Below, piece by piece: positions 11,759 to 18,456 of a stretch of DNA of 64,000 nt (position 1 is its first letter; each line of letters opens with the position of its first letter). A program made the translations under genes and the position numbers. The notes beneath the pieces are model-generated. The model was given only the letters and a program-made list of their open reading frames with translations, made no database searches and was not told where the DNA came from. This stretch comes from an uncultured Prevotella sp. (GTDB lineage: Bacteria; Bacteroidota; Bacteroidia; Bacteroidales; Bacteroidaceae): NCBI GenBank assembly GCA_900315635.1, contig OMZV01000011.1, forward strand, positions 1 to 64,000. The letters are read 5' to 3'.

Positions 11759-12820
11759 TTAATGCTCGTTTATGTAATCGACAATCCACTGACCGACTTC
11801 CGTAGTTCCATAGTGCTTGCCGCCTTCAACCTGAATCTCAGGCGTGCGGACATTGGCATCAAGGCTTGCAGTTACTGCCTCACGAATCTTCGCACCTTCT
11901 TCCTTAAGTCCAAAGTGCTCAAGGAGCATGGCAGCAGACAGAATCTGAGCTATAGGGTTGGCGATGTTTTTACCGGCAGCCTGAGGCCAAGAACCATGAA
12001 CAGGCTCAAAGAGTGGAGTGTGCTCACCAAGTGAAGCCGATGGCTGGAGACCCATAGAACCGGTTATACAACTGGTCTCATCAGTAAGAATATCACCGAA
12101 GGTGTTCTCTGTAACGATAACATCGAAGAAGCGAGGCTCTGTAAGTACACGCATTGAAGCATTGTCGATGAACATGTAGTCGGTAGTTACATCCGGATAC
12201 TTTGGTTCCATCTCCTTTGCTATCTGACGCCAGAGACGTGAACTGGCAAGGACGTTTGCCTTGTCGACAACGGTCAGATGCTTTTTACGGCGCTCGGCAA
12301 ACTCAAAAGCAACCTTCAGAATGCGTTCTATTTCATTACGATGGTATATGTCGGTATCCCAAGCTACATCATTGTCCTGATGCTTCTCACCAAAGTACAT
12401 TCCTCCGGTAAGCTCACGAATAACGACAAAGTCGGCTCCACGAAGGAGCTCATCCTTCAGTGGCGACTTGTGGATAAGGCAATCGAATGTTGCCACAGGA
12501 CGGACATTGGCAAAGAGACCAAGCTTCTTGCGCATAGCCAGCAAGCCCTGCTCAGGACGCACCTTTGCAGTAGGATCGTTGTCGAAACGAGGGTCACCAA
12601 CAGCGGCGAACAACACAGCATCGGCATCCATGCAAGTCTTGAATGTCTCGTCAGGGAACGGATCGCCAACGGCATCAATGGCATGGGCTCCGGTTATTGC
12701 CTCATGGTAAACGAACTCATGATTATACTTCTTGGCAATGGCATCGAGAACAGCCACGCCTTGTTTCATAATCTCAGGACCAATACCGTCGCCTGAGAGA
12801 ACGGCTATATTCAGTTTCAT
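11759..12820 (-). CDS. leuB: 3-isopropylmalate dehydrogenase
   Basis: A 353-residue NAD-dependent dehydrogenase catalysing the third leucine step (3-isopropylmalate to 2-oxoisocaproate). Visible: [12 protein letters not shown] at the N-terminus, the substrate-binding [10 protein letters not shown] (about 140-150), [12 protein letters not shown] with the active-site Lys, and [10 protein letters not shown] plus [16 protein letters not shown] near the C-terminus. The start at 12820 (MKLNIAVL) is used because the longer frame would overlap the stop of the upstream gene; the gap is 4 bp. It is the last gene of the operon. The paralogous citramalate pathway probably uses the same enzyme. Confidence 0.96.
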
Positions 12821-12824
12821 ATTA

Positions 12825-14384
12825 TTATGGATGTGTTTCATACGGTTTCTTATATGGCATTGCTATCTCATCCTCAATGATATTGAGCATCTTGATAGTT
12901 GCCTTAATGGCAGCTTCGGTCTGGTCGGCATCGACAGCATGTGTACGGATGAGGTTACCATTATTTTCCCATGTAATGACTGTCTGTACAAGTGCATCGG
13001 TACGACCGCCTGGCGGAATGGTTACCTGATAGTCATAAAGCAGAGGGAAAGTACGCTGAAGTGATTCCTTATAAATCTTCCTGAGTGCTTTCACGAAGGC
13101 GTCATACTGTCCGTCACCGGTTGAATCGGCTGCGTAAGCCTTTCCATTTATCTCTACCTTGATGCTGGCGATAGGCTTCAGACCATAGCTGGTTGTTACC
13201 ATATAGCTCAGGAGTTTCACACGGTTCTCTGGAGTATTATGTTTCAGAACATCAGAGACTATGAACGGCAGGTCGTCTGGTGTTACAATTTCCTTACGGT
13301 CACCAAGTTCGGTTATCCGTTTTGTAACCGCACGGGTCTGGTCGGGGGTCAGTTCGAGACCGAGTTCCTTAAGGTTCTGCGCGATGTTTGCCTTACCGGA
13401 ATTCTTTCCGAGGGCATACTCACGCTTTCGTCCGAATCGTTCAGGAACGAGGGCATTACTGTAAAGATGGTCTTTGCGGTCGCCATCGGCATGAACACCT
13501 GCAACCTGAGTGAACACATTCTCACCGACAACAGGCTGGTTTGGCGCTACGGCTATACCACTATATCCTGCCACCAGTCGGGAAATCTCATTCAACCGGT
13601 CCTCATGGATACTCGTATCAATATTGAGCATATCCTTCAACATAACCTGAACACTGGCTAACGGAGCATTACCACAACGCTCACCAAGTCCGTTTACGGT
13701 AACGTGAAGTCCTTTCGCCCCACCCTCAACGGCAGCCAGCGAGTCACCAACAGCCATGTCATAATCGTTATGAGCATGGAAATCGAAGTGCTTATCGGGA
13801 TAGCGGCTAACCATCTGTTTGATGTATTCGAGGGTCTCCAGAGGTGTGAGGATTCCGAGAGTGTCGGGCAGAAGGAATCGCGTGATGTTCTCATCCTTCA
13901 TAGCGTCCATCATCTGCCAGACATAATCGGGACTATTCTTCATACCTGAGCTCCAATCCTCAAGATACAGATTGACATCCATACCTTTCGTCCCGGCATA
14001 TTCAATAACCTTCTTAATATCATCAATATGCTCTTCAGGAGTCTTATGCAGTTGGTGCTCACAATGTTTGAGAGAACCCTTGGCAAGCAGGTTAATGACC
14101 TTTCCGCCACAATCGTCTATCCAGTCGACTGACAAATGACCATCAACAAATCCCAGGACTTCGACTTTCTTCAACATTCCGATAGTCCGGGCGTACCTGC
14201 ATATCATGCTCACAGAGTCCTTCTCTCCCTCGGAGACACGCGCCGAAGCCACTTCTATGCGGTCGACATTGACATACCTCATCAGTGCAGCGGCTATCTG
14301 CAACTTCTCGTGTGGTAGGAAAGAAACTCCATTGGTCTGCTCGCCGTCACGGAGAGTCGAGTCCATTATCTCAATCTTTTCCAT
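12825..14384 (-). CDS. Citramalate/2-isopropylmalate synthase-like enzyme (second LeuA paralogue)
   Basis: A 519-residue DRE-TIM metallolyase. The catalytic domain begins [16 protein letters not shown] and has the metal-binding HAHNDYD and [11 protein letters not shown]. The C-terminal LeuA allosteric domain (about 385-510) contains [16 protein letters not shown]. It condenses acetyl-CoA with a 2-oxoacid. Because leuA is already present and leuCDB can process either product, the likely role is (R)-citramalate synthase for isoleucine from pyruvate; a second isopropylmalate synthase is the alternative. It sits between leuD and leuB. Confidence 0.85.
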
Positions 14385-14443: not shown

Positions 14444-15037
14444 CTACACTCTTTTACGTTCGTATTCCTCCACTTTGTCCCGGTTCTGAACAAGGAAGTC
14501 GACATCATCGAGACCATTCTCAAGACAGTGCTTCTTGTAGCCATTAATCTCGAAGTGCTCACTCTTTCCGGTGGCATTGTTGGTTACAGTCTGGTTAGGG
14601 AGGTCGACGGTTACCGTCGTTTTAGGGTCTTTATCAATGCTTTCGAATAGCTCCTTAAGGAACGGCTCAGTGACGACAACCGGCAGTACGAAGTTATTGA
14701 GCTCGTTGTTCTTGTGAATATCAGCAAAGAAAGAACTGATAACCACACGGAATCCATAACCGGCAATAGCCCATGCGGCATGCTCGCGGCTGGAACCGGA
14801 GCCGAAGTTCTTTCCGGCAACAAGGATTACTGCATCCTTGAATTCGGGCTTATTGAGGACGAAGTCTTTCTTCGGTGTGCCATCCTTATTGTATCGCCAA
14901 TCACGGAAGAGGTTATCGCCGAATCCTTTTTTATCAGTAGCCTTAAGGAATCGGGCTGGTATTATCTGGTCGGTATCGACGTTCTCCAAAGGCAGTGGAG
15001 CACAGGTCGATGTTATAACGTTGAATTTCTGTTTCAT
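14444..15037 (-). CDS. leuD: 3-isopropylmalate dehydratase, small subunit
   Basis: A 197-residue swivel-domain subunit of isopropylmalate isomerase, forming a heterodimer with LeuC. Visible: PLPLENVDTDQIIPARFL at the N-terminus and the substrate-loop GSGSSREHAAWAI (about 79). Length is normal. It starts 15 bp after the leuC stop. Confidence 0.96.
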   Translation of the reverse strand: MKQKFNVITSTCAPLPLENVDTDQIIPARFLKATDKKGFGDNLFRDWRYNKDGTPKKDFVLNKPEFKDAVILVAGKNFGSGSSREHAAWAIAGYGFRVVISSFFADIHKNNELNNFVLPVVVTEPFLKELFESIDKDPKTTVTVDLPNQTVTNNATGKSEHFEINGYKKHCLENGLDDVDFLVQNRDKVEEYERKRV

Positions 15038-15052
15038 TGTTCTTGATGGTTT

Positions 15053-16444
15053 TTATAGCTTTCTAGGGTCAGTGATTCTTCCAGTTATTGCTGCGGCAGC
15101 AGCTACTAGCGGCGAAGCAAGGATAGTGCGGGCACCAGGTCCTTGACGACCTTCGAAGTTGCGGTTGCTGGTAGAGACGCAATACTTGCCTGCAGGAACC
15201 TTGTCGTCGTTCATGGCAAGGCAAGCTGAGCATCCAGGCTGGCGAATCTCAAAGCCGGCGTCGGCAAGAATCTTGTCGAGTCCCTCGTCCTCAATCTGCT
15301 GTTTTACATGCCAACTGCCCGGGACAAGCCATGCAACAACATTGTCGGCTTTATGCTTACCCTTGACAAGACTGGTGAAAGCACGGAAATCCTCGATTCG
15401 ACCGTTGGTGCACGCTCCGAGGAATACATAATCAATAGGATGACCCTCAAGTTTCTCGCCAGGCTCAAAGCCCATATAGTTCAGAGCCTTCTTGAATCCA
15501 GCCTGCTCTTCCTCTGGGATGGAATCGAGAGTCGGCACACTTTCGGTGATGCCTATACCCATTCCCGGGTTTGTGCCGTAAGTAATGCGCGGCTCAATGT
15601 CAGCACCATCGAAGTTCAGTTCCTTATCGAATACTGCATCATCGCCACTCTTCAAAGTCTTCCAGTAGGCTACAGCCTTATCCCAGTCCTCACCTTTCGG
15701 AGCATATTCACGACCTTTGAGGAACTCGAATGTTTTCTCGTCAGGGGCAACGAATCCACCACGGGCACCCATCTCTATGCTAAGGTTGCAGAGGGTGAGT
15801 CGTCCGTCCATGCTCATATTGCGGACAACATCGCCACTATACTCGACAAAATATCCGGTGGCTCCAGATGTTGTAATCTTCGACATCAGGTAGAGGGCGA
15901 CATCCTTAGCCGTTACGCCCTTACCTAGTTTACCATTGATGTTGATGCGCATCGACTTCGGTTTCTGCTGAAGGATGCACTGAGAGGCAAGCACCATCTC
16001 AACCTCAGACGTACCGATACCAAAGGCAACAGCACCGACAGCACCGTGAGTAGACGTGTGAGAATCGCCACAGACAATGGTCATTCCCGGCATAGAGAGT
16101 CCTTTCTCCGGACCTATGACATGGATGATACCATTATCCTTGGTGTTCATCTTGAACTCGGTAAGTCCGAATTCAGCACAGTTCTTGTCGAGAGTATCAA
16201 TCTGCTTGCGACCTATCGGGTCGGCAACAGGCTTGTCCTGATCGTGAGTCTGGACATTATGGTCAGGCATACAGTAAACCTGCTTTGGACGAAAGACCTT
16301 CAGCCCACGCTGACGAAGTCCGTCGAAAGCCTGCGGCGATGTCACCTCATGACAATAGAGTCGGTCAATATATAATTGTGTCGGACCGTCGGGCACTATC
16401 TGCACCACGTGTGAGTCCCATATCTTGTCGAAAAGTGTGTTCAT
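15053..16444 (-). CDS. leuC: 3-isopropylmalate dehydratase, large subunit
   Basis: A 463-residue aconitase-family subunit that isomerises 2- to 3-isopropylmalate using a [4Fe-4S] cluster. The cluster cysteines are in [14 protein letters not shown] (about 348) and [12 protein letters not shown] (about 408-411). [15 protein letters not shown] and [10 protein letters not shown] are also conserved. It follows leuA across an 83-bp AT-rich gap holding a large hairpin. Confidence 0.97.
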
Positions 16445-16527: not shown

Positions 16528-18027
16528 TTAGTTTCTAAATTTGTTTATACAATCTATGTAAGCTTCAACTGAGGCAGTGACAATGTCGGTGTCGGCACCG
16601 AATCCATAGTAGACATGACCGTTGTACTCGACCTGCATGTGAACCTTACCAACATCGTCGGAACCCTTGTCGATAGCCTGAATGGTGAACTCCTTAAGGG
16701 TCATATTCTTGGTGATGATTCGCTTCAGAGCCTTGATGGCGGCATCAACAGGACCATTACCCGAGGCACATTCCTCAAACTTCTGACCTGCAATATCGAG
16801 ACCGATAGAAGCAACGCTCTTGACACCCTTACCGGTAGTAACCTGCAGATAGTCGAGCTTGACGGCATGTTCGGCAGCTGTGTCGGCACCGGCAAGCATC
16901 AGAATATCATCATCGGTGACCTCTTTCTTCTTATCGGCAAATTCAAGGAACTTCTTATAAATCTTATCGAGCTTGTTCTCGTCCTTGATGTCGACACCGT
17001 TAATCTCAAGACGGTACTTAAGAGCCGCACGACCGGAGCGGGCTGTAAGAACGATAGAGTTGTCGTCGATACCCACATCCTTCGGGTTCATAATCTCGTA
17101 GGTCTGTGCATTCTTCAGCACTCCATCCTGATGGATACCCGACGAATGAGCGAAGGCATTACGTCCGACGATAGCCTTGTTAGGCTGGACAGGCATGTTC
17201 ATCAGTGAAGAGACCATGCGTGATGTATTGTAAATCTTAGTTGTATTGATATTGGTGTCGATTCCGAGGTTCTTATGGCACTTCAGAATCATGGCTATCT
17301 CCTCAAGGGCGGTATTTCCTGCACGCTCACCTATTCCGTTGATTGTCACCTCAACCTGACGGGCACCATTGATTACGCCCTCAAAAGTATTGGCTGTAGC
17401 CATACCAAGGTCGTTGTGGCAGTGGGTAGATATTTGCGCTTTCTCAATGCCATCGACATGCTCCATGAGGTACTTAATCTTATTGCCATACTCCTGTGGG
17501 AGACAATAGCCTGTGGTATCAGGGATATTGACTACGGTAGCACCTGCCTTGATAACAGCCTCAATGACACGGGCAAGATACTCATTGTCGGTACGACCTG
17601 CGTCCTCGGCATAGAACTCTACATCCTCGACGTACTTCTTGGCATACTTAACGGCGCGGACTGCCCACTCGAGAATCTCCTCACGGTTGGAGTTGAACTT
17701 ATATTTAATGTGGCTGTCGCTGGTTCCGAGTCCTGTGTGTATGCGCTTGCGCTTAGCGTACTTAAGGCTGTCGGCAGCAACGTCAATATCCTTTTCCTTG
17801 GCACGTGTCAGGGCGCAGATGGTAGGCCACGTTACTGCCTTGCTTATCTCGACAACCGAATTGAAGTCGCCGGGACTTGAGATTGGGAATCCTGCTTCAA
17901 TAACATCTACACCAAGCTGCTCGAGCTGTTTTGCTACCTGAATCTTTTCGACAGTGTTCAGCTGACATCCCGGAACTTGTTCGCCGTCGCGGAGTGTCGT
18001 GTCGAAAATGTAAAGTCTCTCACTCAT
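16528..18027 (-). CDS. leuA: 2-isopropylmalate synthase
   Basis: A 499-residue enzyme, first committed step of leucine synthesis (2-oxoisovalerate plus acetyl-CoA). The DRE motif [15 protein letters not shown] is at the N-terminus and the metal-binding [14 protein letters not shown] near residue 203. The C-terminal LeuA regulatory domain is complete, so leucine feedback inhibition is expected. It heads the operon; expression is likely set by the leader peptide and attenuator at 18069-18209. Confidence 0.96.
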
Positions 18028-18068: not shown

Positions 18069-18104
18069 AAAAAAGCCTTTCACACTGCGGAAGTGGGAAA
18101 GGCT
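18069..18104 (-). terminator. Attenuator (terminator) of the leucine operon leader
   Basis: On the minus strand AGCCTTTC (18104-18097) pairs with GAAAGGCT (18081-18074), an inner CAC/GTG stem extends it, and a run of six T follows. It lies between the leader peptide stop and leuA. The segment at 18102-18087 can instead pair with 18151-18137 inside the leader ORF: GCGGAAGTG with CACTTCCGC over nine perfect pairs, plus AAGG with CCTT. That would disrupt the terminator. Confidence 0.88.
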
Positions 18105-18125
18105 CTATGTATCACATACGTCAAG

Positions 18126-18209
18126 TTACATGCACACCTTATCACTTCCGCCCACCCTACGCAGTCGAATGTTAATAATAATGCTTAGCAAACTTGAAAT
18201 ATTCTTCAT
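18126..18209 (-). CDS. Leucine operon leader peptide (branched-chain residues)
   Basis: A 27-codon ORF, too short for usual gene callers: MKNISSLLSIIINIRLRRVG then GSDKVCM. Ten residues are Leu, Ile or Val, including Leu-Leu followed by Ile-Ile-Ile near the start. The ATG is 23 bp past the -7 box and the stop is 22 bp before the attenuator stem. The 5' arm of the antiterminator lies in the last codons, so a ribosome reaching the stop would cover it (termination), while one stalled at the Leu/Ile codons would leave it free (readthrough). This is the classical arrangement of amino-acid attenuators. Confidence 0.85.
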   Translation of the reverse strand: MKNISSLLSIIINIRLRRVGGSDKVCM

Positions 18210-18231
18210 ACTTTTATCTTGTTATCGGTTG

Positions 18232-18263
18232 CAAAATTAAACAATTAAAATGATATAACCAAA
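18232..18263 (-). promoter_or_regulatory. leuAp: Promoter of the leucine operon leader
   Basis: On the minus strand TTTGG (18263-18259) and TAATTTTG (18239-18232) are about 19-20 bp apart, a full Bacteroidetes promoter placed just before the leader peptide. Confidence 0.85.
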
Positions 18264-18368
18264 TAATCTATTACTTTTTTAAGAATAATTCTTCTAAATT
18301 GCAATATAAGCGCAGTTTATGATATGAAACATCATTACACGCATTGCAAATAACGGCTAAACGCATCG

Positions 18369-18456
18369 TAAAAGATGCCTAAATAGATTGTAAAACGGTA
18401 TCTTTTACGTCCTAATTGGGTATCTTTTAGAGGCTAAAAGATGCCCAATTAAAAGC
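18369..18456. repeat. 22-bp-period repeat array, four units
   Basis: Four 22-bp units begin at 18369, 18391, 18413 and 18435, in perfect register. Each is a 17-bp core plus a 5-bp variable spacer. Cores: TAAAAGATGCCTAAATA (reverse), TAAAACGGTATCTTTTA, TAATTGGGTATCTTTTA (forward), TAAAAGATGCCCAATTA (reverse). Spacers: GATTG, CGTCC, GAGGC, AAAGC. It occupies the 386-bp gap between the leu leader and rpmA. The rest of that gap (18264-18368, 18457-18534) shows no ORF or promoter I can support. Confidence 0.9.

Follow-up and report, generated by a model that had tools for sequence, protein, structure and literature searches.

The window analyzed here, a stretch of 64,000 nucleotides from an uncultured Prevotella sp., carries a leucine operon preceded by a leader that an initial annotation, made from the letters alone, had read as a leader-peptide attenuator. 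The questions raised by this locus are whether the leader is such a switch and which amino acids it would read. A ribosome-mediated transcription attenuator very probably controls leuA-leuC-leuD-cimA-leuB, a reading based on what the sequence shows: the parts of the leader, how they are ordered, how far they are conserved and covary, the frame of the ORF, and the fit of its codons to the pathway.

Organization of the leader and the leu operon

On the minus strand, the genes 3' of the leader follow the order leuA-leuC-leuD-cimA-like-leuB. The features of the locus, with the basis of each assignment, are as follows.

18260..18263, minus strand: promoter -33 element TTTG (read from the sequence)
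18232..18239, minus strand: promoter -7 element TAATTTTG, Bacteroidales TAnnTTTG type (read from the sequence)
18126..18209, minus strand: leader ORF of 27 codons plus TAA (ATG 18209, TAA 18126), peptide MKNISSLLSIIINIRLRRVGGSDKVCM (sequence and frame conservation)
18162..18182, minus strand: putative control codons Ile10-Ile11-Ile12-Asn13-Ile14-Arg15-Leu16 (codon profile and folding model)
18161..18167, minus strand: strand 1, CGACTGC, 5' arm of the 1:2 protector hairpin (covariation)
18149..18155, minus strand: 3' arm of the 1:2 hairpin, GTGGGCG, with one A-G mismatch with strand 1 (covariation)
18137..18151, minus strand: strand 2, GCGGAAGTGATAAGG, antiterminator 5' arm (sequence and pairing in alignments)
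18087..18102, minus strand: strand 3, antiterminator 3' arm, common to the terminator and the terminator loop (sequence and pairing in alignments)
18092..18104, minus strand: terminator 5' arm (fold and covariation)
18074..18086, minus strand: strand 4, terminator 3' arm (fold and covariation)
18069..18074, minus strand: T6 tract (read from the sequence)
16528..18027, minus strand: leuA, 2-isopropylmalate synthase (NCBIfam NF002086, 737.8 bits, and TIGR00973, 668.6 bits, both above cut-off)
15053..16444, minus strand: leuC, 3-isopropylmalate dehydratase large subunit (TIGR00170, 651.5 bits, above cut-off)
14444..15037, minus strand: leuD, 3-isopropylmalate dehydratase small subunit (TIGR00171, 196.8 bits, above cut-off)
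12825..14384, minus strand: citramalate-synthase-like gene, cimA-like (best NCBIfam match NF042433, (R)-citramalate synthase CimA, 641 bits, below the cut-off of 950)
11759..12841, minus strand: leuB, 3-isopropylmalate dehydrogenase (TIGR00169, 436.4 bits, above cut-off)

In a named collection that may omit records very near the window's own, the closest LeuA relatives (82 to 87% identity over the best segment) are mostly uncultured Prevotella, Prevotellaceae, and Bacteroides. The two promoter elements are separated by 20 nt, and TAATTTTG is identified as the -7 box by TAnnTTTG, which we take to be the Bacteroidales -7 consensus. Base by base, the sequence agrees with the 27-codon ORF described initially, in which Leu, Ile, and Val account for 10 of the 27 residues of MKNISSLLSIIINIRLRRVGGSDKVCM. 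The terminator stem and its T-run are also borne out: the predicted fold pairs 18104-18097 with 18081-18074 and 18095-18092 with 18086-18083, and the hairpin (18104-18074) runs into the T6 tract (18074-18069), which ends 41 nt upstream of the leuA ATG at 18027. The claimed alternative pairing is exact, with a core of nine perfect pairs between GCGGAAGTG (18151-18143) and CACTTCCGC (18095-18087), and is extended by the pairing of AAGG (18140-18137) with CCTT (18102-18099). The 152-nt leader folds at -43.1 kcal/mol, compared with a shuffle mean of -32.3 (z, -2.99), and 2/200 shuffles are as good.

The structure first proposed was right in its terminator and antiterminator but overlooked the 1:2 protector hairpin (18167-18161/18155-18149), which is revealed by the comparison of relatives. 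The 5' side of this hairpin overlaps the last control codons and its 3' side overlaps the antiterminator strand, which gives the leader all three hairpins, 1:2, 2:3, and 3:4, of the enterobacterial attenuator design. A generic promoter and terminator scan found no terminator at the leader and no more than three sigma-70-like sites, about what chance would give. The probable reason is that its stem rule refuses an internal mismatch and that it uses a promoter consensus other than that of Bacteroidales. Just upstream of the leader promoter, at 18367-18451, lie two inverted repeats with arms that are 94% and 92% complementary and with the common core TAAAAGATGCC/GGTATCTTTTA; GCATCTTTTA is found twice in the window, both times within these repeats, and 3/100 shuffles do likewise.

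Conservation of the leader, its reading frame, and its stems

A covariance model built from 17 leaders (R1) matches 226/398 genomes of the same genus, including 98/176 of the better-quality ones, and 65/393 genomes of the same order, in 37/206 genera. Among 36 same-genus genomes, the window's own included, the leader is present in 16/22 with a leuA start and in 0/13 without leuA, with one partial leuA set aside, 3/13 leuA-less genomes having only a cimA-like relative, and some genomes being incomplete. The expectation that the ORF, the Leu/Ile codons, and the stems would be kept in relatives is largely correct, but 6 of the 22 same-genus leuA genes have no leader. Five of the six (L004, L008, L009, L011, and L025) keep the promoter box 30 to 62 nt from the start codon and, judged by sequence, look as if they had lost the attenuator; at the sixth, L022, the promoter box was not found. 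A scan of the named collection with a broader model (R2) gave 21 rows, in which 17/38 loci have a forward match just upstream of leuA (E ≤ 0.01) and the remaining 4 are antisense echoes; among the named species that carry the leader are Bacteroides gallinarum, Bacteroides rodentium, and Phocaeicola plebeius. In the window's own genome, R1 and R2 each give one match only, with no second copy of the leader, and the ilvD gene has a short 5' leader in which no attenuator was found.

A total of 131 leaders were examined, 100 from the same genus and 31 others (30 from outside the genus plus L133 from inside it). The same-genus leaders comprise 16 from the 36-genome set and 84 from the higher-scoring part of the R1 match list, weaker matches not all being included. 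The same parts recur throughout these 131 sequences, by which the arrangement in the window is more than chance. In 129/131 leaders (50 mononucleotide shuffles: mean, 7.7; maximum, 13), TAnnTTTG occurs in the 90 nt that precede the leader ATG and ends 14 to 61 nt before the chosen ATG, and TTG lies 17 to 23 nt upstream of the -7 box in 126/131, in line with the full promoter annotated in the window. A tetramer resembling the Shine-Dalgarno (SD) motif is present in only 4/131 leaders, and the start region is A-rich instead.

The leader ORF was chosen by the highest fraction of Leu, Ile, and Val, which could favor the hypothesis, and hence the frame was checked across the 131 leaders. Relative to strand 1, one and the same frame holds a candidate ORF in all 131, as conservation in relatives would demand, and in 125/131 candidate ORFs occur in that frame only. 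With codon 0 placed at strand 1, single-base codon differences in codons -8 to -1 were counted as synonymous:nonsynonymous over codon pairs that are non-independent, since the genomes are related. The ratio in the 100 same-genus leaders is 3602:5279 in the true frame versus 1355:12340 and 1969:7716 in the shifted frames, and in the 31 others it is 439:307 versus 47:944 and 208:843. The leader stop codon lies -3 to +24 nt from the end of the strand-2 core in 117/122 leaders (the core was not found in 9/131), so a ribosome finishing the ORF would cover strand 2.

The reading frame bears on whether the hairpins, although real, are switched not by a translating ribosome but by a metabolite, as in a riboswitch, by a tRNA, as in a T-box, or by a protein that binds the RNA. 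The hairpins alone would permit this, and translation of the ORF is a prediction; however, the conserved frame, the synonymous excess, and the choice of Leu, Ile, or Val codons would be needless for a ligand aptamer, and no Rfam family reaches its gathering score on the leader, so that a nonribosomal switch appears very improbable. Over the leader, Rfam at E values up to 5 gave three matches only, far below the scores of their families, and on 12 related loci only a 5S rRNA was matched. A T-box or another cis-regulatory family of Rfam was tried as a candidate, and no covariance-model match on the leader reached the gathering score.

Conservation of the ORF could also come from a functional small protein accompanied by a fixed partial terminator with no response to amino acids. 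The C-terminal part of the peptide is indeed conserved in the genus, with GS at codons 6 and 7 in 86/100 leaders, but this is where strand 2 lies, and the frame varies there, since 13/100 same-genus leaders read RK there and stop at a TGA inside strand 2. It is the RNA, not the peptide, that would be conserved at this place, and a small-protein function is extremely doubtful.

The attenuator reading finds support, at the level of sequence, in the covariation of its stems. The 1:2 and terminator stems together are paired in 89.2% of cells in the 17 leaders, with 8 pairs showing two-sided changes (2.9 in shuffles; 0/500 as high); in 94.7% in 84 same-genus leaders, with 31 two-sided cells versus 5.5 in shuffles and 4 pairs with a two-sided change, a number matched by 49/500 shuffles; and in 92.1% in 47 diverse leaders, with two-sided changes in 19/19 pairs versus 10.1 shuffled and 120 two-sided cells versus 39.3 (0/500 shuffles as high), counts that lean toward this structure because alignments A3 and A4 were fitted to it and that relatedness alone can lift above such shuffles. 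From alignment A2, 15 antisense rows were removed by a stricter E value and two duplicate loci were left out. In 58/83 same-genus leaders, including that of the window, the 1:2 stem has one column pair that does not pair.

The alignments were not fitted to the antiterminator (2:3), which is paired in 88.7% of cells in the 17 leaders (22/500 shuffles as high) and in 95.4% inside the genus, where covariation was sought and none was found because the pairing is nearly invariant there. In the diverse set it is paired in 81.5% of cells, with 16 two-sided cells versus 9.5 (5/500 shuffles as high) and a covariation score as high in 0/500 shuffles; pairs with a two-sided change show no excess in this set (4 versus 3.9 shuffled). 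Covariation had been predicted for both stems: the terminator, taken with 1:2, covaries in 19/19 pairs, but the antiterminator is nearly invariant in the genus and covaries modestly in the wider set.

Control codons and the predicted switch

Among the 100 same-genus leaders, Ile is found at codon -1 in 99 and at -3 in 90 and Leu is found at +1 in 99, and an earlier Leu occurs at -8 in 78 and at -7 in 66; Leu at codon 0 is present in 30/31 of the other leaders. The conservation of Leu and Ile codons that the attenuator would require is thereby seen in relatives. In same-genus leaders, CTA accounts for 108/373 Leu codons versus 14/395 in nine genes of the window, and ATT accounts for 394/461 Ile codons versus 123/331 in window genes, a background taken from one genome.

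Val, at codons -7 to +2, is present in 0/130 leuA leaders versus 8/11 ilv leaders of the same RNA family (P, 1.7e-6 by Fisher's test when compared with the 30 leuA leaders from outside the genus set), and the ilv leaders lacking it are L143, L151, and L294. The ilv leaders, from other genomes, were recognized by similarity to ilvD and in the case of L151 (= L284) by eye; L028 and L034 were left out of the comparison for bad alignment, and strand 1 was placed by hand in L294 and L298. This split is expected if the codons report the products of the operon, as leuABCD with cimA would yield Leu and Ile and ilv would also yield Val. Of 40 regions compared, all 29 that begin with leuA carry leuA, leuC, leuD, and a cimA-like gene in that order, with genes called as the best match among six queries in the first nine ORFs of each region. 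With a cimA-like gene in 29/29 of these regions there is no contrast, and no link between the codon logic of the leader and the presence or absence of cimA was obtainable. The view that the mix of Leu and Ile codons suits the operon is upheld by the leuA-C-D-cimA-like-B order and by the 0/130 for Val, but the cimA-like gene, at 641 bits, lies under the model cut-off of 950. In another genus of the window's family, L285 and L286 (= L177 and L178) are ilvD leaders built to the same plan; at strand 1 they have four Val codons, and in the same genomes the leuA leader instead carries Ile-Ile-Ile-Leu-Leu.

The effect of a ribosome on the window's leader was modeled by equilibrium folding, which ignores folding order, with the bases covered by the ribosome kept unpaired over an assumed span that begins 18 nt behind the A-site codon and ends 10 nt past it. 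In this model, the terminator probability is 1.00 without a ribosome, 0.04 to 0.41 with the A site at codons 10 to 16, 1.00 at codons 17 to 25, and 0.96 at the stop codon, and the antiterminator probability is 0.33 to 0.95 at codons 11 to 16. At codons 8 and 9, the terminator falls to 0.38 and 0.30, with the antiterminator at only 0.05 and 0.06, and codon 7 of the early Leu-Leu pair has little effect. The initial annotation had placed stalling at the Leu and Ile codons in general; the model agrees for the Ile run and the adjoining Leu, where the antiterminator is predicted to win at codons 11 to 16, but not for the early Leu-Leu codons 7 and 8, which form no antiterminator.

In the 100 same-genus leaders, with an 11-nt front to the footprint, the mean terminator probability is 0.30 to 0.39 at codons -4 to -1, 0.61 at Leu +1, and 0.96 at the stop codon, and with fronts of 8 and 14 nt the edge shifts and the terminator dip remains. 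Control leaders, whose middle was shuffled once each, have a mean near 0.89. A leader was counted as switching when its terminator probability drops under 0.5 in codons -4 to +1 and stays higher than 0.8 at the stop codon. Switching is predicted in 75/100 same-genus leaders versus 4/31 others, and 11/131 control leaders fall below 0.5. Within the genus, the folding model thus supports a switch; outside it, the model is weak.

The mechanism that we infer, from transcription start and translation of the ORF to termination and the amino acid response, is as follows. RNA polymerase would start near 18225, and a ribosome would begin the leader ORF. With an ample supply of charged tRNA-Ile and tRNA-Leu, the ribosome would reach the stop codon and cover strand 2, leaving strand 3 to pair with strand 4, and transcription would stop at T6. 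When Ile (or Leu) is short, the ribosome would wait on codons 10 to 16, covering strand 1, and strand 2, freed from the 1:2 hairpin, would pair with strand 3, letting the polymerase read into leuA. LeuB, LeuC, and LeuD also work in the citramalate route to isoleucine, and sensing both Ile and Leu would fit the operon for this reason.

The same attenuator might sense isoleucine essentially alone, the Leu codons being incidental, as the strongest mean relief of the terminator occurs when codons -4 to -1, which are mostly Ile, occupy the A site, and the relief at Leu +1 is weaker and disappears with the longest footprint (0.53, 0.61, and 0.96 for fronts of 8, 11, and 14 nt). Nevertheless, Leu is kept at +1 in 99/100 same-genus leaders and at codon 0 in 30/31 others, with synonymous variation, Leu8 also lowers the window terminator in the model (0.38), and leucine is the main product of the operon, which leaves isoleucine-only sensing unlikely.

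Known leaders and the wider pattern in Bacteroidota

The Escherichia coli leuLABCD, ilvGMEDA, ilvBN, and thrLABC leaders combine tandem control codons in an ORF with 1:2, 2:3, and 3:4 hairpins and a terminator before the first gene, and leuL uses the rare CTA for Leu. The leader described here is like them in its ORF with control codons, its hairpins, the place of its terminator, and its CTA codons for Leu, and unlike them in the near lack of SD-like tetramers (4/131), the A-rich start, the Bacteroidales promoter, and the mixture of Ile and Leu codons before a leu operon. No sequence homology is claimed.

A 2010 survey stated that, apart from the ermC leader, it knew of no such leaders beyond Proteobacteria and Actinobacteria until its own case in Firmicutes (PMC2965389). 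A genome-wide prediction of leader genes includes Bacteroidetes (PMC4833913), and small ORFs of B. thetaiotaomicron are called "reminiscent of leader peptides" (PMC7366714). A branched-chain-rich upstream ORF with proposed attenuation also precedes ilvB-II of Corynebacterium, in another phylum and before another operon (PMC10272879). The initial annotation considered an attenuator in this order worth describing, and a search of the literature, chiefly of openly accessible papers, found none that describes a leucine attenuator from Bacteroidales; however, "strong clues" for leader-peptide attenuation before amino acid operons, from the transcriptome and RNA structure, already exist in the same phylum for Flavobacterium psychrophilum, in an account whose accessible part names no leucine leader and shows no alignment (PMC9723704). 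The leader is absent from Rfam, and its kind of attenuation is already known and is hardly described in this bacterial group. The Bacteroid-trp RNA (RF01692) appears as a probable cis-regulatory RNA of Bacteroidetes in Table 1 of a further article (PMC2864571). The RF01692 covariance model matches neither the leader nor any other place in its genome. By its name, this RNA is presumably tied to trp.

R2 matches 24/395 genomes of the phylum, six in the order and 18 outside it, and 0/18 of the matches outside the order lie before leuA. The best match in each of these 18 genomes, inspected by eye with gene names read from N termini as leads and no survey, lies before trpE-like genes in 3, with Trp runs; before thrA-like genes in 6, Thr/Ile rich; before ilvE-like genes in 5, with Ile/Val runs; and before an ilvA-, ilvD-, or ilvH-like gene in one each, and 1/18 has no clear gene. 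Such weak matches could reflect a common plan and not common descent. Two further R2 matches in the window's family precede ilvD, as confirmed by similarity, and carry RVVVV or SVVVV.

These leaders suggest modular attenuators throughout the phylum in which the strand-1 codons are exchanged to suit the operon (Ile/Leu before leuA, Val before ilvD, Trp before trpE, and Thr/Ile before thrA) and hence tight coupling without SD pairing, a proposal for and against which we hold the case evenly balanced. To our knowledge, Bacteroidota initiate translation without SD pairing, and leader-peptide attenuation needs a ribosome close behind RNA polymerase and a prompt start on the leader; if the proposal is true, these bacteria keep transcription and translation tightly coupled despite that mode of initiation. 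No study of the tightness of this coupling in Bacteroidota was found among the papers listed on the subject, judged by titles and the beginnings of abstracts, and a conserved attenuator in this order makes the coupling directly testable with a reporter. For the synthesis of branched-chain amino acids in bacteria like Prevotella and Bacteroides, the leader also supplies a predicted regulator that Rfam lacks, and such leaders are possible amino acid sensors for engineering gut commensals.

In other Bacteroidota, L159, L173, and L175 are WWWW or WWW leaders with a terminator before trpE-like genes, and none of the three is matched at an Rfam gathering score, Bacteroid-trp included. L161, L163, L164, L165, L172, and L176 are Thr/Ile-rich leaders before an aspartokinase-like gene (thrA-like, by eye), and the E. 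coli thr leader resembles them.
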